Shown: one piece after another, positions 21,563-55,737 of the stretch
Numbering within the stretch: position 1 is the stretch's first letter
Layout: every line of letters begins with the position of its first letter
DNA from: Hymenobacter psoromatis
GTDB taxonomy: Bacteria > Bacteroidota > Bacteroidia > Cytophagales > Hymenobacteraceae
Assembly: GCA_001596155.1 (NCBI GenBank)
Contig: CP014771.1
Location: 3,286,001 to 3,350,000 of the forward strand
Direction: 5' to 3'
DNA: 64,000 bases
Program-made: the position numbers and the translations under genes
Notes under the pieces: generated by a model
Told to the model about the DNA's origin: nothing
Seen by the model: the letters and a program-made list of their open reading frames with translations, nothing else
Databases searched by the model: none

Positions 21563-23431
21563 ATGTTCTCCGATACTGAATACGACCTGATTGTGGTGGG
21601 CGCGGGCCACGCCGGCTGCGAAGCCGCCGCCGCCGCCGCCAACCTGGGCTCGAAAGTGCTGCTGGTGACGATGAACATGAATACCATCGCCCAGATGTCG
21701 TGCAACCCCGCGATGGGGGGGGTAGCGAAAGGCCAGATTGTGCGCGAAATCGACGCGCTCGGCGGCCAGTCGGGCCTCATCACCGACCGCACCATGATTC
21801 AGTTTCGGATGCTGAACCGCTCCAAAGGCCCCGCCATGTGGAGCCCACGCGCCCAAAGCGACCGCATGCGCTTCGCCGAAGACTGGCGCATGACGCTGGA
21901 GCAGATTCCGAACGTCGATTTCTGGCAGGAAGCCGTGACTGGTTTGCTCGTTGAAAACGGTGCCTGCGTGGGCATTACCACCGCGCTGGGCATCGAGTTT
22001 CGGAGCAAAACGGTGGTGCTGACGAATGGTACCTTTCTCAACGGCCTCATTCACATTGGCGAGAAGAACTTTGGGGGGGGTAGGGCCGCGGAGAAGAACA
22101 GCCGCGGCCTCACGGAGCAGCTCGTGGAGCTGGGCTTCGAGGCCGGGCGCATGAAAACCGGCACGCCGCCCCGCGTGGACGGCCGCTCGCTCGACTACTC
22201 CAAGATGGAAGTGCAGGACGGCGACGCCAACCCGAGCCGCTTCTCGTACCTCGACACGCCGCCGCTCACCGGGCAGCGCCCGTGCTACATCACCTACACC
22301 AACGAGCGGGTACACAACATCCTGCGCGAAGGCTTTGAGAAATCGCCCATGTTTCAGGGGCGCATTAAGGGGCTGGGGCCGCGCTACTGCCCGAGCGTGG
22401 AGGACAAAATCAACCGCTTCGCCGACAAGGACCGCCACCAGATTTTTGTGGAGCCCGAAGGCTGGAGCACCGTGGAATGCTACGTGAACGGCTTTTCGAG
22501 CAGCTTGCCCGAAGATGTGCAGTACCGCGCTCTGCGCGAAATCGCGGGCTTTGAGAAGGCCAAGATGTTCCGGCCCGGCTACGCCATTGAGTACGACTTC
22601 TTCCCGCCGACGCAGCTCACTAATACGCTCGAAACCAAGCCGGTGCGCAACCTCTGGCTGGCGGGCCAGATAAACGGCACCACTGGCTACGAGGAGGCTG
22701 CCTGCCAGGGCCTGATGGCCGGCATCAACGCCCACCAGCGCGCCCACGACAAGCCTGCCTTCACGCTACGGCGCGACGAGGCCTACATCGGCGTGCTCAT
22801 CGACGACCTTATCAACAAAGGCACCGACGAGCCCTACCGCATGTTCACGAGCCGCGCCGAGCACCGCATTATGCTGCGCCAGGACAACGCCGACCTGCGC
22901 CTCACGCCGCTGGGCCACGCCTTGGGCCTGGCCAGCGACGAGCGCCTGGCGCGGGTGCGCCAGAAGGAAGCCGACACCGCCGCCGCGCTGGCCGTGCTGG
23001 CCAATTTCGGCATCGAGCCAGCCACGATTAATGGCTTTTTAACTGAAAAAGGCTCGGCCGAGATTCACGAGAAAACCCGCGCCCTCAACCTGCTGCGCCG
23101 GCCCAATATCGAGCTGCCCGAGCTGGCCGCCGCGCTGCCCGCGCTGGCCGCGAAGCTGGCCGCGTTCAGCGCCGATGCCCAGGAGCAAGCTATTATTCAG
23201 ACCAAGTACGAGACGTATTTGCAGAAGGAGCAGCAGCAGGCCCAGCGCATGCGTGAGCTGGAAGACTTCCGCATTCAGGGCCGCCTCAACTACGGGGCCA
23301 TGCCCGCGCTCAGCCACGAGGCCCGCGAAAAGCTGCTCAAGATTCAGCCCGAAACCCTGGGCCAGGCCAGCCGCATCAGCGGCGTGAGCCCGGCCGACGT
23401 ATCGGTGCTGATGGTGTACCTCAATAGATAA
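21563..23431 (+). CDS. mnmG: tRNA uridine-5-carboxymethylaminomethyl(34) synthesis enzyme MnmG
   Basis: MnmG (GidA) together with MnmE modifies the wobble uridine of certain tRNAs using FAD, NADH and methylene-tetrahydrofolate. The 622-residue length is normal. The FAD-binding motif VVGAGHAGCEAA lies at the N-terminus, followed by MSCNPAMGGVAKGQIVREIDALGG, GTFLNGLIHIGEKNFGGGRAAE and the C-terminal MnmE-binding helices with ISGVSPADVSVL. A run of eight G within codons for GGG(R) at about 22073-22080 is tolerated here. mnmG is a frequent neighbour of the chromosomal origin in other phyla, relevant to the DnaA-box cluster 3 kb downstream. Confidence 0.98.
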   Translation: MFSDTEYDLIVVGAGHAGCEAAAAAANLGSKVLLVTMNMNTIAQMSCNPAMGGVAKGQIVREIDALGGQSGLITDRTMIQFRMLNRSKGPAMWSPRAQSDRMRFAEDWRMTLEQIPNVDFWQEAVTGLLVENGACVGITTALGIEFRSKTVVLTNGTFLNGLIHIGEKNFGGGRAAEKNSRGLTEQLVELGFEAGRMKTGTPPRVDGRSLDYSKMEVQDGDANPSRFSYLDTPPLTGQRPCYITYTNERVHNILREGFEKSPMFQGRIKGLGPRYCPSVEDKINRFADKDRHQIFVEPEGWSTVECYVNGFSSSLPEDVQYRALREIAGFEKAKMFRPGYAIEYDFFPPTQLTNTLETKPVRNLWLAGQINGTTGYEEAACQGLMAGINAHQRAHDKPAFTLRRDEAYIGVLIDDLINKGTDEPYRMFTSRAEHRIMLRQDNADLRLTPLGHALGLASDERLARVRQKEADTAAALAVLANFGIEPATINGFLTEKGSAEIHEKTRALNLLRRPNIELPELAAALPALAAKLAAFSADAQEQAIIQTKYETYLQKEQQQAQRMRELEDFRIQGRLNYGAMPALSHEAREKLLKIQPETLGQASRISGVSPADVSVLMVYLNR

Positions 23432-24597: not shown

Positions 24598-24657
24598 CTT
24601 GGGCCGCCGCAACGGCAGCGGTTATTTTTGCCCAGTTTTTCCGCCGCTTTTTTGCTG

Positions 24658-26343
24658 ATGAGTTTTCACGCTGCTTTTCGTTCGTTGTGGAGTAAGGGGG
24701 GGGGTAGGGCCTCCGGGCTAAGCGCGGGCGCGCTGGCGGCGCTGCTGGCGCTGGGCAGCTGCGCGGCCATCAGCTCGCCGCAGGGCGGCCCGCGCGATAA
24801 AACGCCGCCGCACCTCATTGCTACCTCGCCCGACAGCGCCGCCCGCAACGTGAAGCAGCAGTTTATCAAGCTCACGTTTTCGGAGGCTATTCAAGTGAAA
24901 GAGCTGCCTAAAAACCTGCTCATTACCCCGCAGCTGCCGCCCGACAACCCGTATTCGGTGCGCCCGGACCGCGACGCGGTGACGCTGCTCTTCAAAAAAC
25001 CACTGGAGCCGAACACGACCTACTCGTTCAACTTCCGCAAGGCTATCGTGGATGCCAACGAGAGCCTGCCGGCCAAGTATGAGGCCCTGAGTTTCAGCAC
25101 CGGCGCCACCCTCGACTCGGGCGTGGTGCGCGGCAGCGTGGTGGACCTGCTCACGAGCCGCCCCGCCAAAGACGCCGTGGTGGGCCTCTACCGCACCACC
25201 GACACGGTGGGCGTGCGCCGGGGCCAGCCCTACTACCTCACCCGCACCGACGACAAGGGCCAGTTTAAGCTCAATTTCGTGCGCACCGCGCCCTACGATA
25301 TCTACGCCTGGGTCGATAAGAACAACAACGGCCGCTTCGACGACGGCGAGAAAATCGCCTACCTGCCCGCGCCGCTGCTGGTCAGCGACACCACCGCGCC
25401 GCGCACCCTGGTGCTGGTGCGGCCCGACCGCCTACCCCCCCGCCGCACCAGCCTCGAAACCACCGCCCTCCAGGCCCGCCTGTCCTTCAACGAAGGCCTG
25501 CGCACCGCCACGCTTTCCTCCCTGGCACCCGCCGCCGATGCCCAGGCCCAGGCCGCCGTGCAGGCCGCCACCGAGCTCACCAACCAGGCCCACTCACTGC
25601 TTATCTATAAAACGCCGGCCCTCGGCGATGGCCGCTATTTGCTGGCCGTGAGCGACAGCGTGGGCAACGCGCGGAGCGACACGCTCAACCTGCGCTTCCC
25701 GGTGCCCACGGCGGCGGGCAAGAAAACGCCGCCGGCCGGCACTATTCTGGTGGGCGGCGCGCGCTCGGTGTACCGCGAGGGGCAGGTGAAATTCCGGTTT
25801 CCGGTGCCGGTGCTGCTGGTGTCGGGCAAGAGCCCCGGCACGCTTACCGAAGACTCCATCAAGACCCACGCCCTGCGCGTGCCGGCCGAAGCCAGCCTCA
25901 GCCCCGACCGCACCGTGCTGACGGTGAGCATCGATACCAAGGCGCTGAAAACGGTCGAAATCCGCCTCGACACCACGGCCATCGTGGCCGTGACGGGCCA
26001 GAGCCTGCTGCTGCGCCGGCCGGTGCGCCTGGCCGTGACCGACCAGGACCCGAGCGGTATTATTCTGGGCACTATCACGAGCAAGACGCCGCAATTCGAC
26101 CTGCAGCTGCTCAACGACCAGTTTCAGGTGATAGCGCAGCTGCGCTCGCCGCGCGGCACCTACCGCTTCGACCACCTTGCGCCCGGCAAATACCGCCTGC
26201 GCGCCCTCCTCGACCAGGATGGCGACGGCCACTGGCGCGGCGGCGACCCCAACCTGCGCCTGCCCGCCGAGCCCATTTACCTCTACCCCAAAACCCTGGA
26301 GGTGCGCGCCGGCTGGGAAGACGAGGAAAACCTGAGCTTTTAG
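24658..26343 (+). CDS. Ig-like domain lipoprotein
   Basis: The protein (561 residues from the ATG at 24658) has a hydrophobic segment LSAGALAALLALGSC ending in a lipobox, so it is a lipoprotein. The next part, PQGGPRDKTPPHLIATSPDSAARNV...KLTFSEAIQVKELPKNLLITPQ, is the bacterial Ig-like (Big_5) domain typical of a conserved Bacteroidota lipoprotein; a carboxypeptidase-like repeat follows (VRGSVVDLLTSRPAKDAVVGLY) and a C-terminal LRALLDQDGDGHWRGGDPN motif. Function is unknown. A run of nine G at 24696-24704 lies between the start codon and the lipobox; loss or gain of a base would switch the frame. A TTG at 24628 is a less likely start. Confidence 0.85.
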   Translation: MSFHAAFRSLWSKGGGRASGLSAGALAALLALGSCAAISSPQGGPRDKTPPHLIATSPDSAARNVKQQFIKLTFSEAIQVKELPKNLLITPQLPPDNPYSVRPDRDAVTLLFKKPLEPNTTYSFNFRKAIVDANESLPAKYEALSFSTGATLDSGVVRGSVVDLLTSRPAKDAVVGLYRTTDTVGVRRGQPYYLTRTDDKGQFKLNFVRTAPYDIYAWVDKNNNGRFDDGEKIAYLPAPLLVSDTTAPRTLVLVRPDRLPPRRTSLETTALQARLSFNEGLRTATLSSLAPAADAQAQAAVQAATELTNQAHSLLIYKTPALGDGRYLLAVSDSVGNARSDTLNLRFPVPTAAGKKTPPAGTILVGGARSVYREGQVKFRFPVPVLLVSGKSPGTLTEDSIKTHALRVPAEASLSPDRTVLTVSIDTKALKTVEIRLDTTAIVAVTGQSLLLRRPVRLAVTDQDPSGIILGTITSKTPQFDLQLLNDQFQVIAQLRSPRGTYRFDHLAPGKYRLRALLDQDGDGHWRGGDPNLRLPAEPIYLYPKTLEVRAGWEDEENLSF

Positions 26344-26691: not shown

Positions 26692-27194
26692 GGTGGATAA
26701 CTCACCTGCATTTCCAGTTACTGAGGCCGGTTTTTACCCTTTATCCACTAGTTATCCACCAGGTTTCCCACAGCCGGCTCATCGGGCCGGCTTTTTTGTG
26801 GATAACCTTGGGGAAAGCCACTGCCGAACGGTGGATAAAATGCGGACAAGTTTTTTTGGTAATGTGGCTCGGCAAGCAGTTCGCCGGCGCTGTGGATAAC
26901 CGTGGATAACTCGGCCCGCCTACGAACACTATTCACACTGCCTACCCCCTGTGGATTGTGGAAACGTGGATAACCCCTGTGAATAGTGGAAAACTCAGTT
27001 AAGTTCTTAATCAACAGGCCAATGATATGCACATTGCCTGTGGAAAGCCGGTGCATAAGCCCGTAGTTGTGCACCTCTTATCCACGCTGTGGACAACTCG
27101 CCAATGTTATCCACTTATCCACTGCCCTGATGGATGGAAATAGAAAAGGGATTTTTAAAAAAGAAATTAATTCACAATTTAAGTTTGTGGAAAA
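26692..27194. other. oriC: candidate chromosomal origin (oriC): DnaA-box cluster plus AT-rich stretch
   Basis: Eleven copies of TTATCCAC on either strand lie in 432 bases: 26692, 26741, 26752, 26797, 26830, 26891, 26901, 26965, 27078, 27107 and 27115 (left ends of the 9-mers). Two of them (26797 and 26891) are the perfect box TTATCCACA on the minus strand. A variant TTGTCCACA lies at 27088 and TTTTCCACA at 27186. The cluster is followed by an AT-rich stretch at about 27135-27185 (AAAGGGATTTTTAAAAAAGA...), a possible unwinding element in this GC-rich genome. A terminator-like hairpin with T7 (26773-26797) sits inside. No gene of quality overlaps. parS, recF and dciA lie 27 kb to the right and mnmG 3 kb to the left. 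Confidence 0.72.
27180..27187 (+). promoter_or_regulatory. TAAGTTTG -7 box
   Basis: TAAGTTTG fits TAnnTTTG and lies 120 bases before the DUF4385 gene, at the right edge of the AT-rich stretch. No -33 element is obvious. Confidence 0.4.
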
Positions 27195-27306
27195 CTTCGG
27201 GCTGGCCGATTCCCTACCCCCCTCGGGCCAGGCCAACCCTGGGCGGCGGCCGGCCGTTGAAAAGTGCCCGCGGCTGCTCGCGGCCCGCTCGCCCCCGCCC
27301 CACCTA

Positions 27307-27801
27307 ATGCCCTTCGATTACGACCTGGATTTTGCCGCCACCGACTTTCGGGCGCACCCCGAGCTATACCGCGTGGGCAAGGGCGAGCAGGGCGTGCTGC
27401 TGGTGCAGCCCTACAAGGGCGAAATTCTGCCTCACTGGCGCTTCAAGGATGCGGCGGCGGCCCGCGAGTCGTCGGCGGCCATCTGGGCGCTCTTCGAGGC
27501 TTATTTGCAGGCCGGGGACTTTGTGGGGGCCGACATGGCGCGCAAGTTTTTGCAGATGGGCTTCACCCGCGCCCGGCGCTACGCCAACCACGCCGGCGGC
27601 AAGAAGTACGCCGGCCCCGTGCCCGCCGACAAAAAAGGCCAGAGCGGTGCCCACGGCCGCGCCGAATTGCCCCGTAATCCCCACCCCGATGTGGATAAAG
27701 TGGAAGCCGCCGCCATTTTCAAAGCCAAGTGGGACGAGGCCAAAGCCCTGCCCGACTACCAGCGCCAGAAAGCCTTATTTGAGGAAAAATATGGAAACTA
27801 A
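27307..27801 (+). CDS. DUF4385 family protein
   Basis: The 164-residue soluble protein carries the well-conserved blocks of DUF4385: DFRAHPELYRVGKGEQGVLLV, PYKGEILPHWRFKD and ADMARKFLQMGFTRARRYANHAGGKKY. The family is widespread in bacteria and has no established function. I chose the ATG at 27307; upstream in-frame sequence runs through the DnaA-box region and has no family match. A perfect DnaA box (complement of TTATCCACA) occurs inside the gene at 27690-27698. Confidence 0.9.
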   Translation: MPFDYDLDFAATDFRAHPELYRVGKGEQGVLLVQPYKGEILPHWRFKDAAAARESSAAIWALFEAYLQAGDFVGADMARKFLQMGFTRARRYANHAGGKKYAGPVPADKKGQSGAHGRAELPRNPHPDVDKVEAAAIFKAKWDEAKALPDYQRQKALFEEKYGN

Positions 27802-27892
27802 AAGACTATGGACTGTAAGTCCATAGGTTTAAGGGCGAATGAAATTCGGCGGTTTCGGCTAAAGCCGACTGAAAGCCAGCTACTAAAGTAGG

Positions 27893-28171
27893 TTATTCCA
27901 GAATGAAATTCTCGTCCCCGTTGGGCTGGTCTTTGTGATGGTTTAAATACGCCTCCAAGATGTCATCCGTGATATTTCCTACGCTCCACGCTCCGTAGCC
28001 AATACCCCAAAAATGCCCGCCCCAATACCGACGCTTGAGTTCGGGAAATTCCTGCAACAGGAGCTTGGCGCTTCGTCCTTTTAGCCGGCGCATGAGGTCA
28101 CTCACACTCAAGAAAGGCGGATACGACACATGTAGATGAATATGGTCTTTGCTCACCACCCCTTTGAGAAT
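27893..28171 (-). pseudogene. tnpA: IS200/IS605 TnpA, C-terminal part
   Basis: The fragment starts within LKGVVSKDHIHLHVSYPP, containing the HUH motif (HLH) that binds the metal, and ends with ITDDILEAYLNHHKDQ, where the catalytic Tyr is expected. It lost its first 53 codons to the ISAs1 insertion. An internal GTG/ATG could start a truncated product, but the enzyme would be incomplete. Confidence 0.88.
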
Positions 28172-29358
28172 CAGGGCAAAAGCACCAAAAGGTAAGTTAG
28201 CGACCTTTGGGGATGGAAGAAGAAGTAGCGGATTTCTTTTGGCAGGTAACGGACTATCGGGTGGAGGGGCGCTGTCTACACGAGCTAAGCGATATTATTT
28301 GGCTGGTGCTATGCGGCTTACTGGCTGATTGCGAAGATTTTGAGCAGATTTATGATTACGCCTGCGACAAACAGGCCGTGCTCGCTCAGTTTCTGAGCTT
28401 GCCCGCCGGCATCCCCTCGTCTTATACGTTGCAGCGCGTGTTCAGCCGCCTGAATCCCGTCGAACTTGAAGCCAGCCTCACCCACTGGGGGCAGGACATT
28501 ATGCGGGTCCTGGCTGGGCAGCAGCTGGCCATCGATGGCAAGCAGGTGCGCGGCACCTGCCTGCCCGGCCAGCGCCAGGCCAGCGTGCAGCTGGTCAGCG
28601 TCTGGGCGACCGAACAGCGCCTATGCCTGGCCCAGACCCAAGTGGCCAGCAAAGCCAACGAACTCGTGGCCATCCCCCAAGTGCTCGACCTGGTGGAGGT
28701 AGCCGGCAGCGTGGTGAGCATCGATGCCATCGGCTGTCAGCGCGCCATTGCCACGACGCTGGTCGAGCGCCGGGCTGATTATGTGCTGGCCCTCAAGCAG
28801 AACCAGCGGACCCTCTTCGAGCAAGTGCAGGCCCACCTTGCCCCGCTACTGCGGCAGGAGCCGGCCTTTGTGAGCCGCGAAAAAGACCACGGCCGCGGCG
28901 AGGAACGCCGGGTATGGGTGAGCCGGAACCTGAATCTGGTGGAGGAAGCTGCCGAGTGGGCGGGCCTGGCGGCGGTGGTCTGCGTGCAGACCCGGCGCTG
29001 GCAACAGGGGCGGGAGCAGCACAGTACGCGCTACTACCTGAGCTCGCTGGCGCAAGCGAGTGCGGGCGAGTTGGCGGGCTATGTGCGCGGGCACTGGGGC
29101 ATCGAAAACGACCTGCACTGGCACCTGGATGTCACCTTTGCCGAGGATGCCTGCCGGGTGCGCCAGGGCCACGCCCCGCGCAACCTCTCTACCCTACGCA
29201 AGCTGGCTCTCACCCTCTTACGACGTGAGCCAACGAAGATGAGTCTGCCACGCAAGCGCAAGAAAGCGGCTCGCGATGATGACTACCTCCGACAATTGCT
29301 CCGCCAGCTAGCTCCACAGCCCCCAGACGCTAACTAACCGTTTGGTGCTTTTGCCCTG
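28172..29358 (+). mobile_element. ISAs1-family insertion sequence
   Basis: The 1187-bp element has inverted ends that start CAGGGCAAAAGCACCAAA and match over about 31 bases with two differences. It is flanked by a perfect 10-bp duplication CTTTGAGAAT (28162-28171 and 29359-29368). Length, CAGGG ends and 8-10 bp duplication fit ISAs1. The duplication being perfect points to recent insertion. Confidence 0.93.
28213..29337 (+). CDS. ISAs1-family transposase
   Basis: The 374-residue protein has the family's N-terminal segment (HELSDIIWLVLCGLLADCEDFEQI) and a DDE domain with AIDGKQVRG (first Asp), VSIDAIGCQ (second Asp) and GHWGIENDLHWHLDVTF (Glu). The frame is open from end to end, so the enzyme may be active. 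ATG at 28213 is preferred to the TTG at 28207. Confidence 0.94.
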   Translation: MEEEVADFFWQVTDYRVEGRCLHELSDIIWLVLCGLLADCEDFEQIYDYACDKQAVLAQFLSLPAGIPSSYTLQRVFSRLNPVELEASLTHWGQDIMRVLAGQQLAIDGKQVRGTCLPGQRQASVQLVSVWATEQRLCLAQTQVASKANELVAIPQVLDLVEVAGSVVSIDAIGCQRAIATTLVERRADYVLALKQNQRTLFEQVQAHLAPLLRQEPAFVSREKDHGRGEERRVWVSRNLNLVEEAAEWAGLAAVVCVQTRRWQQGREQHSTRYYLSSLAQASAGELAGYVRGHWGIENDLHWHLDVTFAEDACRVRQGHAPRNLSTLRKLALTLLRREPTKMSLPRKRKKAARDDDYLRQLLRQLAPQPPDAN

Positions 29359-29368
29359 CTTTGAGAAT

Positions 29369-29518
29369 CTGCACATCCAACGTATTACAGGTTTGCCGCA
29401 ACAAGTCCCGACAACGCAGTTGCACCTCCCCCACCAAGACTTTGTAGCGGTACTTCGTGCTCCAGACCAAATGCACATCTAGCTTATGAACCGAGTGACT
29501 ACCTGTGCGCTGCTTCAT
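29369..29518 (-). pseudogene. tnpA: IS200/IS605 TnpA, N-terminal part
   Basis: The fragment begins MKQRTGSHSVHKLDVHLVWS, the standard N-terminus of IS200 transposases, and runs to VQILK where the 10-bp duplication of the ISAs1 element interrupts it. Beyond the junction the frame runs into the foreign element and stops soon. Joining to the piece at 27893-28171 gives about 141 residues, normal for TnpA. Confidence 0.88.
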
Positions 29519-29612
29519 GCCGCAAAGCTACCCAACTGCCAAAAGGGAGTAGCAACTAAAGTCTTGCCCTAAAGGGCATAGTTTTAACTAGCGTACCTGA
29601 AAAGTAAAAAAT

Positions 29613-29713
29613 CCGTCTGTCATTGCGAGCGCAGCGCGGCAATCGCACCAGAACGAAATCGTTCGGGTGTCGTTTTGGTGCGATTGCCGCGCTGCGCTCG
29701 CAATGACAGACGG
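29613..29713. repeat. perfect 38-bp-arm palindrome (REP-like)
   Basis: CCGTCTGTCATTGCGAGCGC (start of the left arm) and 18 more bases are matched exactly by the right arm at 29676-29713, with a 25-base loop. The word ATTGCGAGCGCAGCGCGGCAATC is a frequent repeat type in Bacteroidota spacers. Confidence 0.88.
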
Positions 29714-29725
29714 GTGTGGCCCGGC

Positions 29726-29733
29726 TACCTTTG
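29726..29733 (+). promoter_or_regulatory. TACCTTTG -7 box
   Basis: TACCTTTG matches TAnnTTTG and lies 27 bases before the ATG of the next gene, directly behind the REP-like palindrome. Confidence 0.6.
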
Positions 29734-29759
29734 CACCAACTTTAAACTCCCTATCCCCC

Positions 29760-30251
29760 ATGAGCACCCCGACGACGACCCCCAGCAGCATCGAGGAAAA
29801 CGAAATTATCCTGGGCACCGGCATGGGCCCGCTGCGCTTCGGCACCACGATGGACGAGGTGCGCACCCTGGTGGGTGAGCCCGAGGAAATCGACGAGTCG
29901 GAAGACGAGGACGAGTTTGAGCACCAGGCCTGGAACTACTACGAGGACGACCACCTGCTTTCGCTCTACTTCGACCGCGAAGATGACTTCCGTCTCAGCT
30001 GCATCGAAACCGATAACCCCGGACTGCGTCTCTTCGGCGAGGTTATTTACGGCCAGCCGCTGGATAAAATAAAGGACCTGATGAAGCGCCACCACCAGGC
30101 CGCCCCCGAAGTGGAAACGATGGAAGGCGGCGAGGTACGCCTCTCCTACGAGAAGTCGATGATTGACATGTACTTCGAAGAAGGTTTGCTGCAATTCGTG
30201 AACTTCGGCGTCTTCATCAACGACGACCTGGAGGTGCAGTGGCCCAAGTAG
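29760..30251 (+). CDS. hypothetical acidic protein
   Basis: The 163-residue protein is strongly acidic (EEIDESEDEDEFEHQ in the middle) and lacks a signal peptide or membrane segment. The segment GMGPLRFGTTMDEVRTLVGEP resembles the turn seen in small immunity-like or SmpA/OmlA-type folds, but I cannot place it in a family. The promoter box at 29726 supports expression. It ends shortly before the second DnaA-box group. Confidence 0.65.
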   Translation: MSTPTTTPSSIEENEIILGTGMGPLRFGTTMDEVRTLVGEPEEIDESEDEDEFEHQAWNYYEDDHLLSLYFDREDDFRLSCIETDNPGLRLFGEVIYGQPLDKIKDLMKRHHQAAPEVETMEGGEVRLSYEKSMIDMYFEEGLLQFVNFGVFINDDLEVQWPK

Positions 30252-30284
30252 GCCGTCTTGGCATTAGCCTGAAAGTTCCCCGGA

Positions 30285-30347
30285 TTATCCACGAGGGTCA
30301 AAAGTTATCCACAAAAAGGCCGTTTTTGGCTGTGGATAAGTGGATAA
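30285..30347. other. second DnaA-box group
   Basis: Four boxes lie within 63 bases: TTATCCACG (30285), TTATCCACA (30305, perfect), TTATCCACA on the minus strand (30331, perfect) and TTATCCACT on the minus strand (30339). The spacing suggests a DnaA-binding site, either the second half of a split origin or a DnaA-titration/regulation site. Confidence 0.7.
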
Positions 30348-30474: not shown

Positions 30475-31878
30475 CTACCCCGCGAACGAGCGGAACAGCA
30501 GAAACAACAGCCCCGAGAGCACCATCGTGACGGGCAGCGTGAGCACCCAGGCCAGGGCAATGCTGCGCACCATTTCGGGGTTGATGTTCTTGACGCCGCG
30601 GCTGGCCACCATGCTGCCCGCGATGGACGAGGTGAGCACGTGCGTGGTGGAAGTGGGCAGGCCCGACTGCGTGCTAAGGCCAATCATGGCGGCCGCCACC
30701 AGCTCCGAGCTGGCGCCTTGGGCGTAGGTGAGGTGCTCCTTGCCGATGCGCTCGCCAATGGTTTTCACGATGCGCTGCCAGCCGATGGTGGTGCCGGCAG
30801 CCAGCGACAGCGACACCATGAGCAGCACCTGCCAGGGCGCGTAGTCGGTGAAGGTTTTCATCTCCTCGATGGCCTTGTTGTAGGCTTCGCGGTCGGCGGT
30901 GCTGATGCTTAGCTGGTCGGAGCCGAGCAACTGCTTGCCGCGGTTGGCGAGCAGCAGAATGTCGCGCCGAATCTCGAAGCGGGCCTGTTTGGGCAGGTCC
31001 GATACCTGGTTTTTGCCGGCGAATACGCGGTCGAGGTCGGCGGTTTGGGTGCGCACGGCGGCCAGCATCGCCTGGTCTTTGGCGCTGAGGCTATTGGCAT
31101 CCAAGCGATTAACCACGTACTCGACCTTGGTGAGCGAGGCGCGCAGGTCGAGCGGGTTTTTGTTGACATCGAGGGCAAAGTGAATGGGCACGATGCCGAT
31201 GAGAATCAGCATAATTAGCCCTACCCCCTTCTGGCCGTCATTGGAGCCGTGGAAGAAGCTCACCAGCGTGCAGGTGGTGATGAGCGTGAGGCGGATGAAC
31301 AAGGGCGGCGGCTTGCGCTTGTGGGGCTCCTTGAACAGCGCTTTGCTCGGGAAAAACCGCTTGAGCAAAAACATCATCAGAATGGTGAAGGTGAAGCCCA
31401 GGATGGGGCTCAGCAGCAGCGCCAGGCCGCTTTCGCCGGCCTTGCCCCAGTTCACGGCCGCGCCCTGGCCGCCGGGCAGCAGCGAAAACGCAATCCCTAC
31501 CCCCAGAATGGAGCCGATAAGCGCGTGCGACGACGACGACGGAATGCCGTAGTACCAGGTGCCCACGTTCCAGATGATGGCCGCCACGATGAGCGCGCCC
31601 ACCATCGCAATGCCGTGGTACACGTTCTGGTCCACGAGGCTCTCCACGGGCAGCAAATACACGATGCCCATCGCCACGCCAATGCCGCCCGAAAAGACCC
31701 CGATGAAGTTCCAGAACGCCGACCACACCACCGCCACCCAGGGCCGCAGCGTGTTGGTATAAATAACGGTGGCCACGGCGTTGGCCGTGTCGTGAAAGCC
31801 ATTCACGAATTCAAACGCGCAGGCTGCCAGCAAACAAGCAGCTAGCAGCAGCAACACGTGGGGTTCAAGTCCGAACAT
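30475..31878 (-). CDS. PiT-family inorganic phosphate transporter
   Basis: The roughly 467-residue membrane protein has the two duplicated PiT signatures: FVNGFHDTANAVATVIYTNTL near the N-terminus and FFHGSNDGQKGVGLIML in the middle, plus IPSSSSHALIGSILG and GLPTSTTHVLTSS. About ten membrane segments surround a soluble loop (about 230-330) rich in charged residues. PiT proteins take up phosphate with protons or sodium across the inner membrane. I take the ATG at 31878 rather than the longer in-frame start at 31911, because the protein then starts at the first membrane segment. No PhoU-like partner is next to it. Confidence 0.92.
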   Translation of the reverse strand: MFGLEPHVLLLLAACLLAACAFEFVNGFHDTANAVATVIYTNTLRPWVAVVWSAFWNFIGVFSGGIGVAMGIVYLLPVESLVDQNVYHGIAMVGALIVAAIIWNVGTWYYGIPSSSSHALIGSILGVGIAFSLLPGGQGAAVNWGKAGESGLALLLSPILGFTFTILMMFLLKRFFPSKALFKEPHKRKPPPLFIRLTLITTCTLVSFFHGSNDGQKGVGLIMLILIGIVPIHFALDVNKNPLDLRASLTKVEYVVNRLDANSLSAKDQAMLAAVRTQTADLDRVFAGKNQVSDLPKQARFEIRRDILLLANRGKQLLGSDQLSISTADREAYNKAIEEMKTFTDYAPWQVLLMVSLSLAAGTTIGWQRIVKTIGERIGKEHLTYAQGASSELVAAAMIGLSTQSGLPTSTTHVLTSSIAGSMVASRGVKNINPEMVRSIALAWVLTLPVTMVLSGLLFLLFRSFAG

Positions 31879-32038
31879 AAAGAGGAGCCAGAGTGGGTAG
31901 CCGGCCCGCAAAATTAGCTCCGTGTGAAGCTAGCGGCGTGTTACCGAATCATTACCGCAGATTTACCGGATTTAGCTTCGCTGTCCTTCGGTTCGTGGAT
32001 ACGCCCACTGCGCGGGCTGGCTCGCGTCTTCGCTGTTT

Positions 32039-53815: not shown

Positions 53816-53831
53816 TGTTCCACGTGAAACA
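53816..53831. other. parS: parS centromere-like site
   Basis: TGTTCCACGTGAAACA matches the consensus TGTTNCACGTGAAACA of ParB binding sites at all fixed positions. It is centred in a longer palindrome (AACAAAAATGTT...AACATTTTTGTT, 53808-53839) just behind the stop codon of the HTH gene. ParB-parS sites cluster near the origin in most bacteria. Confidence 0.85.
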
Positions 53832-54105: not shown

Positions 54106-54423
54106 CTAGAGGAAAACTACCTCGCTTACTACTTGAGCACCTACTTCCTTGTTCAGCATTTCCAGCACGCGCGTCTTTGCCATCACCAGTTCATGCTTGA
54201 GCGGGGCTGACGAGAGCCGTACAAACAGCTTGCCTTTGGCCACGTATACCTCCTGCGTTTTGAGGGCCACCGCTTTTCCCATCACGCGCTCCCAGCTGGC
54301 AACTACGGTTACTTCGTTGAGCTTGCCGCCTAATCGGTAGGCCCGCACGAGAGCCTCCAGGCCTTCCTTCAGCGGGATAGTGTCGGCCCGGCGAGCGGTA
54401 GGGGAGAGGCTGGGTTTTTTCAC
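54106..54423 (-). CDS. dciA: DUF721 (DciA-like) protein
   Basis: The 105-residue protein matches the DUF721 family: LKEGLEALVRAYRLGGKLNEVTVVASWERVMGKAVA...KLFVRLSSAPLKHELVMAKTRVLEMLN. In other bacteria DciA loads the replicative helicase DnaB when DnaC is absent. It lies behind recF on the same strand (110 bases between them), a known arrangement, and near the parS site. Confidence 0.9.
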   Translation of the reverse strand: MKKPSLSPTARRADTIPLKEGLEALVRAYRLGGKLNEVTVVASWERVMGKAVALKTQEVYVAKGKLFVRLSSAPLKHELVMAKTRVLEMLNKEVGAQVVSEVVFL

Positions 54424-54533
54424 GGCTTATGGCTGCAAATATCCGCCGCCAGCCCTCAGAAAAAGTGCGTGGCAAAGCGGTATTGCGTACTCCAAAATTA
54501 CGGCTTGGCACCGGCGAAGCGGGTGCCCGAAAG

Positions 54534-55661
54534 TCAAATTGCCCGTACGTTTCCGGCCCGCACCTCGAACTGCCGAATGGCGCTACTCACCCCCGCTAGG
54601 GCGCGGTTGGTGCGCTCCAGGTTGGTGTCGGTGAGGAAGACTTGCCCAAACGTGTGGTCGGCTACCAGCTCTAGGAGCCGCGCGATGCGCTTGTCATCGA
54701 GGCGGTCAAAGATGTCGTCTAACAGCAGCAGTGGCTTGGTCTGTGCTGAACCCGCGTTCTGGGGGCGCTGGGCCAGCAGCTCAAATTGCGCAAGCTTGAG
54801 GGCAATGGCAAACGACTTCTGCTGGCCTTGCGAGGCGTAGCTCTTCACCGGCAGTCCATCCATCAGAAAAACGAAGTCGTCGCGGTGAGGGCCGGTAGTG
54901 CTGCGCTGCAAAGCCAGGTCGCGGCGCTCGTTGGCCAGCAGCAGATGGCGAAAGTTCTGGCCGGTCAACTGGCTCTTGTAATCCAGCGAAACTTCCTCGC
55001 GCCCATCGGCCAGCTGCAAATAGTGCCGCTGAAAAACGGGGACGAACTGCGTAGCGAACTCAGCCCGCAGCGCGGCCAGCCGCTCACCCAACGGCGCAAG
55101 CTGGTCGTCGAGCGACTGTAGGTAAAGAGCATCAAAACCCTGGCTGCTGCCACTTAGCTTGAGGGTGGCGTTGCGCTGGCGCAGCAGGCCGTTGTATTGG
55201 ATAAGAAGCTCCAGGAACTCGTGGTCTAACTGCGACTGGAGGCTGTCGAAATAACGTCGGCGCTCCTCGCTGCCCTGCCTGATGAGGTCGGTATCGTAGG
55301 GTGATATGAGCACGGCAGGGTAGCGGCCAATGTGGTCGGCCAGGCGCTCATAGGGCTGCTTATCGTGCGTAATAGTCTTCTTCTGCCCCACGCGCAGGCT
55401 AACCTGGATGGTTGCGGTCCGCTCGGCTGGCGGCGTAGAAAAGCTGCCTTTAACCACGAAAAAATCGGCACCCTGCTTAATGGCCTGCGCATCGGCGCTG
55501 GCAAAAGCGCTCTTAGTAAGTGCCAGGTAGTAAATGGCGTCGAGCAGGTTGGTTTTGCCGCTGCCATTATCCCCGATAAAGCAATTGATGCCGGGGCCGA
55601 AGGCCAGGCTGGCTTCTTCGTAATTCTTGAAAAAAAGCAGGTGGAGCTGGTCGAGCGTCAT
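54534..55661 (-). CDS. recF: DNA replication/repair protein RecF
   Basis: The 375-residue SMC-like ATPase has Walker A GDNGSGKT at residues 30-37 (with FIGDNGSGKTNLLDAIYYL around it), the signature YASQGQQKSFAIALKLAQ and Walker B LLLLDDIFDRLD. RecF binds gapped DNA and helps RecA loading at stalled forks. The gene often belongs to the dnaA-dnaN-recF-gyrB cluster; here dnaA, dnaN and gyrB are not in the window. It is followed by the dciA-like gene and precedes parS. Confidence 0.97.
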   Translation of the reverse strand: MTLDQLHLLFFKNYEEASLAFGPGINCFIGDNGSGKTNLLDAIYYLALTKSAFASADAQAIKQGADFFVVKGSFSTPPAERTATIQVSLRVGQKKTITHDKQPYERLADHIGRYPAVLISPYDTDLIRQGSEERRRYFDSLQSQLDHEFLELLIQYNGLLRQRNATLKLSGSSQGFDALYLQSLDDQLAPLGERLAALRAEFATQFVPVFQRHYLQLADGREEVSLDYKSQLTGQNFRHLLLANERRDLALQRSTTGPHRDDFVFLMDGLPVKSYASQGQQKSFAIALKLAQFELLAQRPQNAGSAQTKPLLLLDDIFDRLDDKRIARLLELVADHTFGQVFLTDTNLERTNRALAGVSSAIRQFEVRAGNVRAI

Positions 55662-55737
55662 TCGAGGCGATGGGGTGGGAGTACGGGCAGAATTACGTAA
55701 TTTCGCCCTCCCAACGCGAAATTATATACCCCGAATT

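Follow-up and report, generated by a model that had tools for sequence, protein, structure and literature searches.

A predicted chromosomal replication origin, probably bipartite and with a spacer other than dnaA, in Hymenobacter psoromatis

Introduction

Does a dense group of DnaA boxes, located in Hymenobacter psoromatis far from the dnaA gene, mark the chromosomal replication origin (oriC), and is this origin continuous or split? The group lies in a 64,000-nucleotide stretch of DNA (hereafter the window, positions 3286001-3350000 of the 5.24 Mb chromosome C3; the genome counts 5.45 Mb in three contigs), where an earlier note based on the letters alone had proposed a candidate chromosomal origin. 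From the sequence comparisons reported below, we propose that the locus 26692-30347 of the window is a DnaA-dependent chromosomal oriC, with a probability of about 0.93, and that it is probably bipartite.

Escherichia coli typifies the continuous oriC, which combines TTATCCACA-type boxes with an A/T-rich element and is not next to dnaA. Within the Cytophagales, the order that comprises Hymenobacter, a functional origin is that of Cytophaga hutchinsonii, which Xu et al. 2012 reportedly used in replicative plasmids. According to PMC4285127 (sections 4 and 5), dnaA usually adjoins oriC, although many bacteria are exceptions, and the genes that surround the origin are conserved in each group; a length of up to about 2000 bp is given for bipartite origins, whose spacer is usually, but not strictly required to be, dnaA, and why some origins are split is not known (section 5). 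In the excerpts of PMC8235120 on Bacillus subtilis and Helicobacter pylori, DnaA binds to both subregions while the spacer is looped out, there are fused boxes proximal to the DNA unwinding element (DUE), and the DnaA-trios come after a GC-rich stretch. We found no study of a Hymenobacter origin among the open papers; predicted DoriC entries may exist for this genus.

Results

A Dense Cluster of DnaA Boxes Adjoins an A/T-Rich Stretch

The earlier note had counted eleven box cores in about 430 bases on both strands, at a density far above chance and followed by an A/T-rich run. The eleven exact TTATCCAC cores were indeed found on both strands (26693-27122, 430 bp), and the run corresponds to the 60-bp stretch that we presume from its sequence to be the DUE (Table 1). 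The window contains 17 copies of TTATCCAC, as compared to a mean of 0.66 and a maximum of four in shuffled sequences, and the Poisson probability of eleven copies in 430 bp is about 3e-29 when the genome's own rate of this 8-mer (173 in 5.45 Mb) is used as the background. The 9-mer sites with at most one mismatch to TTATCCACA include TTGTCCACA (27088-27096) and TTTTCCACA (27186-27194).

Table 1. Position of the features in and around the predicted origin (window coordinates; a dot stands for no strand).
Feature	Position	Strand	Remarks
mnmG	21563..23431	+	PF01134
Big_5 (Ig-like) protein gene, left border	24628..26343	+	PF13205
Origin subregion 1 (predicted)	26692..27194	.	13 DnaA-box-like 9-mers (TTATCCACA, at most one mismatch), 11 with exact TTATCCAC
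Fused tandem boxes TTATCCACTTATCCAC	27107..27122	+	face the A/T-rich stretch; block aligned in 33 loci, often with 1-2 bases changed
Presumed DNA unwinding element	27138..27197	.	60 bp, 80% A/T
DUF4385 gene, first spacer gene	27310..27801	+	PF14328, E 5e-64
Partial IS200-like (Y1) transposase gene	27893..28159	-	PF01797, profile positions 48-120 of 121; interrupted by the ISAs1-like element
ISAs1-like element	28172..29358	+	transposase 28207-29337; 18-bp perfect terminal inverted repeats
Conserved gene without Pfam match, second spacer gene	29757..30251	+	kept in the genus loci
Origin subregion 2 (proposed)	30285..30347	.	four boxes (++--) flanked by convergent genes
PiT-type phosphate permease gene, right border	30475..31911	-	PF01384
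parS, exact	53816..53831	+	sole site in the genome at one mismatch or less
dciA	54106..54426	-	PF05258, E 3e-14
recF-like gene (open frame)	54534..55721	-	PF02463, E 3e-18

The fused tandem boxes are separated by a CCCTGA stretch from the presumed DUE, and a stability lower than that of the latter is found in only 0.07% of the 60-bp segments in the window. In B. subtilis and H. pylori as well, the boxes next to the DUE are reported to be fused and to precede a short C-rich stretch (excerpts of PMC8235120). This end of subregion 1 was recognizable in an alignment of 33 loci as fused boxes, CCCTA/GA, an A/T-rich stretch and a last box (the set left out L149 and L154, apparent duplicates of G014 and G001, and L171, whose contig ends before DUF4385; G, L and C numbers are our labels for genomes, loci and contigs). 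In 32 of these 33 loci, the 40 bp with the highest A/T content between Big5 and PiT are on the side of subregion 1, the exception being L100, where they fall between the second box cluster (see below) and PiT. The cluster 2-PiT interval of L100 (genome G012) measures 1986 bp, far more than its counterparts in the genus, and a transposase-like insertion seems to be present in it.

No DnaA-trio array of a basal unwinding system (BUS) was found in the 32 scored loci (L114 was left out, and the anchors of L111 and L113 look wrong): boxes and a C/G-rich gap are present, and only the first triplet fits YTD, in 32/32 cases. An Rfam search of the window returned one tRNA and no match at the origin locus, and the promoter and terminator scan gave counts close to the shuffled mean.

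The Box Cluster Keeps Its Genomic Neighborhood

The genes cited as supporting context in the earlier note, namely mnmG, recF and dciA, along with parS, were all recovered (Table 1; the recF gene is better described as recF-like). Among named sequences, the best matches to mnmG come from Hymenobacter, with identities of up to 97%. The order mnmG-methyltransferase-Big5-boxes-DUF4385-second spacer gene-boxes-PiT was observed in all 24 genus genomes examined, i.e., the window, 19 others and four added ones (G003, G006, G010 and G022). G011, the one left out of the 25, has, on its contig C207, box pairs separated by 1.5 kb, and L116 is another place in G006, not the origin locus of that genome. We also scanned 80 mnmG loci for boxes with at most one mismatch, excluding 12 because of their insufficient length. 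In 57 of the 68 scored loci, as compared to 7.9 expected, the 500 bp with the highest density of boxes is found 2.0-4.5 kb past mnmG, and the 11 misses include three Pontibacter loci along with Chitinophagales, Saprospiraceae and Flavobacteriales loci. Hence the cluster stays beside mnmG-methyltransferase-Big5 across the genus and much of the order.

A Second Box Cluster Lies beyond Two Genes

Four more TTATCCAC cores, absent from the earlier note, occur at 30285-30347, where four sites also match TTATCCACA with at most one mismatch. Being located between convergent genes, this second cluster is not an obvious promoter. The alignment recovered its core in 31 of the 33 loci (L151 ends before the core, and L107 has the tandem pair only), and the distance that separates it from the last core of subregion 1 is 1084-1601 bp in 31 relatives, versus 3170 bp in the present genome.

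The locus shares with the bipartite oriC of B. subtilis and H. pylori (excerpts of PMC8235120 and PMC4285127) its two box clusters, placed in different intergenic regions, and the presence in one of them of what looks by sequence like an unwinding element. Unlike in these bacteria, the spacer consists of DUF4385 and the second gene rather than dnaA, which is 2.44 Mb away, and the two clusters together span 3.7 kb, in contrast to the upper value of about 2 kb given for known bipartite origins in the consulted part of PMC4285127. The locus resembles the E. coli-type continuous oriC in its TTATCCACA-type boxes beside an A/T-rich element and in its location away from dnaA (same sections of PMC4285127), and differs from the E. 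coli oriC by its gene context and by the second conserved cluster beyond two genes. As neither of the two genes that precede this conserved cluster is related to replication, the origin looks bipartite with a spacer other than dnaA.

Subregion 1, with its many boxes and its A/T-rich stretch, may nevertheless suffice as a continuous oriC, the second cluster then being a separate nearby DnaA site for titration, reactivation or regulation, like datA or DARS. Two observations give this alternative real weight: a second group of at least three boxes within about 4 kb was found in only three of the 34 other loci of the order that have at least five boxes in subregion 1, and an inter-cluster distance of 3.2 kb is tolerated in the present genome. 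They are opposed by the retention of the subregion 2 core in 31/33 genus loci and by the narrow range of its distance, 1.08-1.60 kb, in the 31 relatives. We regard the continuous origin as quite possible, and we incline to the view that subregion 2 contributes to origin function, which makes the locus probably bipartite.

The second cluster seems to characterize Hymenobacter and its nearest relatives (one of these loci, L158, is named Solirubrum). Its core is missing from 8/8 Rufibacter, Adhaeribacter and Pontibacter loci, in which subregion 1 also has few boxes of this consensus. This absence, to be taken with caution in view of these few boxes, and the 3/34 count given above suggest such a restricted distribution. 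In three loci from other Cytophagales (L168, L184 and L194), a candidate second group of boxes is found 4.9-5.4 kb past mnmG, and these loci could possibly be independent bipartite origins.

The Locus Is Opposite dif and Close to parS

To locate dif, a first, looser pattern was derived from the dif sites of E. coli and B. subtilis; it matched C3:830536 (two mismatches) and C3:2339434 (three mismatches, right arm broken). The C3:830536 site was reused as the pattern on 39 genomes. At zero or one mismatch, it occurs once per genome in 25/25 genus genomes; additional matches with three mismatches were found in six of them (G001, G003, G008, G013, G022 and G023), and the backwards pattern, used as a control, matched once each in the present genome (G000) and in G007. 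Taking each chromosome-size contig as a whole circle, the distance between the box cluster and the best dif-like site is 47.3% of the chromosome in the present genome, and 49.2% of the contig in both G002 and G003, 48.4% in G005, 47.3% in G006, 49.8% in G010, 49.4% in G012 and 47.4% in G020. The homologous site is thus opposite dif in 8/8 genus chromosomes (47.3-49.8%), and the same distance is 49.9% of the contig in G028, which belongs to another family. The chance of eight such values is about 8e-11 if they are independent; this is an upper estimate of the strength of the evidence, because relatives are not independent.

Similarly, parS is 27 kb away from the box cluster here and 21-29 kb away in 8/8 genus chromosomes, and it occurs at one mismatch or less at least once in 25/25 genus genomes (G004 and G016 have two each). 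The three rRNA operons all follow the shorter arms from the site towards dif, co-directional with the forks, an outcome that by itself has a chance of 1 in 8. The GC skew was sampled in 60 spaced stretches totaling 720 kb. The difference between the right and left means (+0.010 and -0.007) is weak (p 0.068, and p 0.068 for the first 40 stretches alone), and the best single split falls at 2.74 Mb rather than 3.31 Mb. Two-parameter fits place the origin anywhere from 2.7 to 3.75 Mb, with a terminus at about 0.1 Mb; the fourfold-site skew gives p 0.72, and the crude gene-strand fraction goes in the wrong direction (p 0.11).

The sampled skew is too weak to place an origin; as to the skew minimum elsewhere that the earlier note had named as a refutation, it speaks neither for nor against this locus. 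A different reading, namely that the clusters serve in DnaA titration or gene regulation and that the true origin is elsewhere, can draw on the lack of independent support from the skew, on the remoteness of dnaA and on the boxes that precede a presumed nrdB in relatives (see below). We judge this reading very improbable in view of the location opposite dif in the eight chromosomes, the proximity of parS, the A/T-rich stretch adjoining the boxes, the order-wide conservation, and the lack of any other pair cluster in the genome by the patterns used. Regarding the latter, box density elsewhere was judged from same-strand pairs (gap of at most 30 bp) and inward-facing pairs of the 8-mer. There are seven same-strand pairs genome-wide, and all seven are in the origin locus; inward-facing pairs occur at two places, the second cluster and a single pair at C3:2512582. 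By these patterns, the equally dense clusters that the earlier note had named as a possible refutation were not encountered.

Nested Insertion Sequences Widen the Spacer

The gap between DUF4385 and the next gene is 1958 bp here versus 48-245 bp in relatives. It is occupied by an ISAs1-like element (named from annotated plasmid matches) inserted in an IS200-like element, which widens the inter-cluster distance to 3.2 kb. The ISAs1-like element is flanked by 10-bp direct repeats (28162-28171 and 29359-29368) that represent a target duplication. The two nested insertion sequences are present in this genome alone among the loci compared, and the L152 locus of Hymenobacter sp. UV11, which aligns with both flanks of the insertion, lacks it. 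Beside the insertion, a 44-bp inverted repeat (29613-29713, 98% complementary) has the look of a repetitive element.

Two insertion sequences between the clusters might call to mind the origin of an integrated plasmid or mobile element, an idea to which we give practically no credence, since 31 relatives carry the clusters without these insertions and the surrounding genes are ordinary chromosomal ones. A distant search of a plasmid collection matched only DUF4385, the transposase and unannotated pieces, each covering 2-7% of the query.

The dnaA Gene Is Distant from the Predicted Origin and, in Three Genomes, Close to dif

As stated in the earlier note, the window is devoid of dnaA; the PF00308 match is found at C3:875524-876009, 2.44 Mb from oriC and 45 kb from dif. 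The gene has an intact frame encoding 602 amino acids with RDHATV, which we take to be the DnaA signature motif, so that the genome possesses a cognate DnaA. The absence of dnaA, which the earlier note had held against an origin, loses its weight, as the gene is distant from the site in all chromosomes measured: it is 0.93-1.19 Mb from the origin in G002, G003, G006, G010 and G012, and 1.00 Mb in Hymenobacter sp. BT18. The dnaA-dif distance is 208 kb in G005 and 203 kb in G020. Because G005 and G020 have some of the mnmG sequences closest to that of the present genome, the near-dif location of dnaA in these three genomes likely results from a single move. No DnaA boxes that could form an autoregulation site were found near dnaA with two patterns in the 3.5 kb of L001.

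Discussion

By its sequence, the locus presents a box cluster far above chance and an adjoining A/T-rich element, and comparison places it opposite dif and near parS. The candidate chromosomal origin of the earlier note is well supported by this location in 8/8 chromosomes and by the constant place of the cluster in the genus and much of the order. We propose that ATP-DnaA, produced from the distant dnaA gene near dif, would fill subregion 1 and would melt the A/T-rich stretch 27138-27197, starting from the fused boxes. DnaA bound to subregion 2 would contact the DnaA of subregion 1, with the spacer looped out as in B. subtilis and H. pylori; DciA would help in loading the helicase, and ParB, bound at parS 27 kb away, would segregate the new origins.

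An origin away from dnaA is already known, because the consulted sections of PMC4285127 report many such bacteria. Less usual are a bipartite layout that lacks dnaA, the wider spacing and the proximity of dnaA to dif, none of which we found in open papers. Tentatively, these features can be combined in one scenario, to which we are not firmly attached: a continuous Cytophagales origin would have turned bipartite in Hymenobacter through a second box cluster beyond two genes unrelated to replication, with no dnaA between the clusters; the nested insertion would show that the origin works at a 3.2 kb spacing; and dnaA would have moved beside the terminus in one sub-lineage.

If this scenario is true, the nested transposon insertion of this strain is a natural spacing variant, and thereby a test, of a split origin, and new dnaA copies arise only as replication ends. 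The dnaA gene near the terminus allows one to ask whether its dosage near oriC matters for the timing of initiation. A bipartite origin with a non-dnaA spacer would be at hand, with both near and more remote relatives that let one date the second part and ask for its role. Furthermore, the present analysis places oriC in a much sequenced environmental genus in which the skew is too weak for this purpose.

Some boxes outside the two clusters deserve mention. A TTATCCAC core (27691-27698) lies within the DUF4385 gene, 381 bp past its start, and recurs at an equal offset in L106, L108, L109 and L235, which may reflect protein-coding constraint. The lone inward-facing pair of perfect boxes at C3:2512582-2512606, distant from the origin, is possibly a DnaA regulatory or titration site. 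A three-site motif, TTATCCAC(A)...TGTGGA(C/T)AA...TTATCCAC, is common to nine genus genomes, namely G016 (L051), G017 (L062) and, by place, G001, G004, G006, G008, G013, G015 and G018. In both loci read (L051 and L062), it is located directly upstream of a putative nrdB, presumably encoding the small subunit of ribonucleotide reductase.
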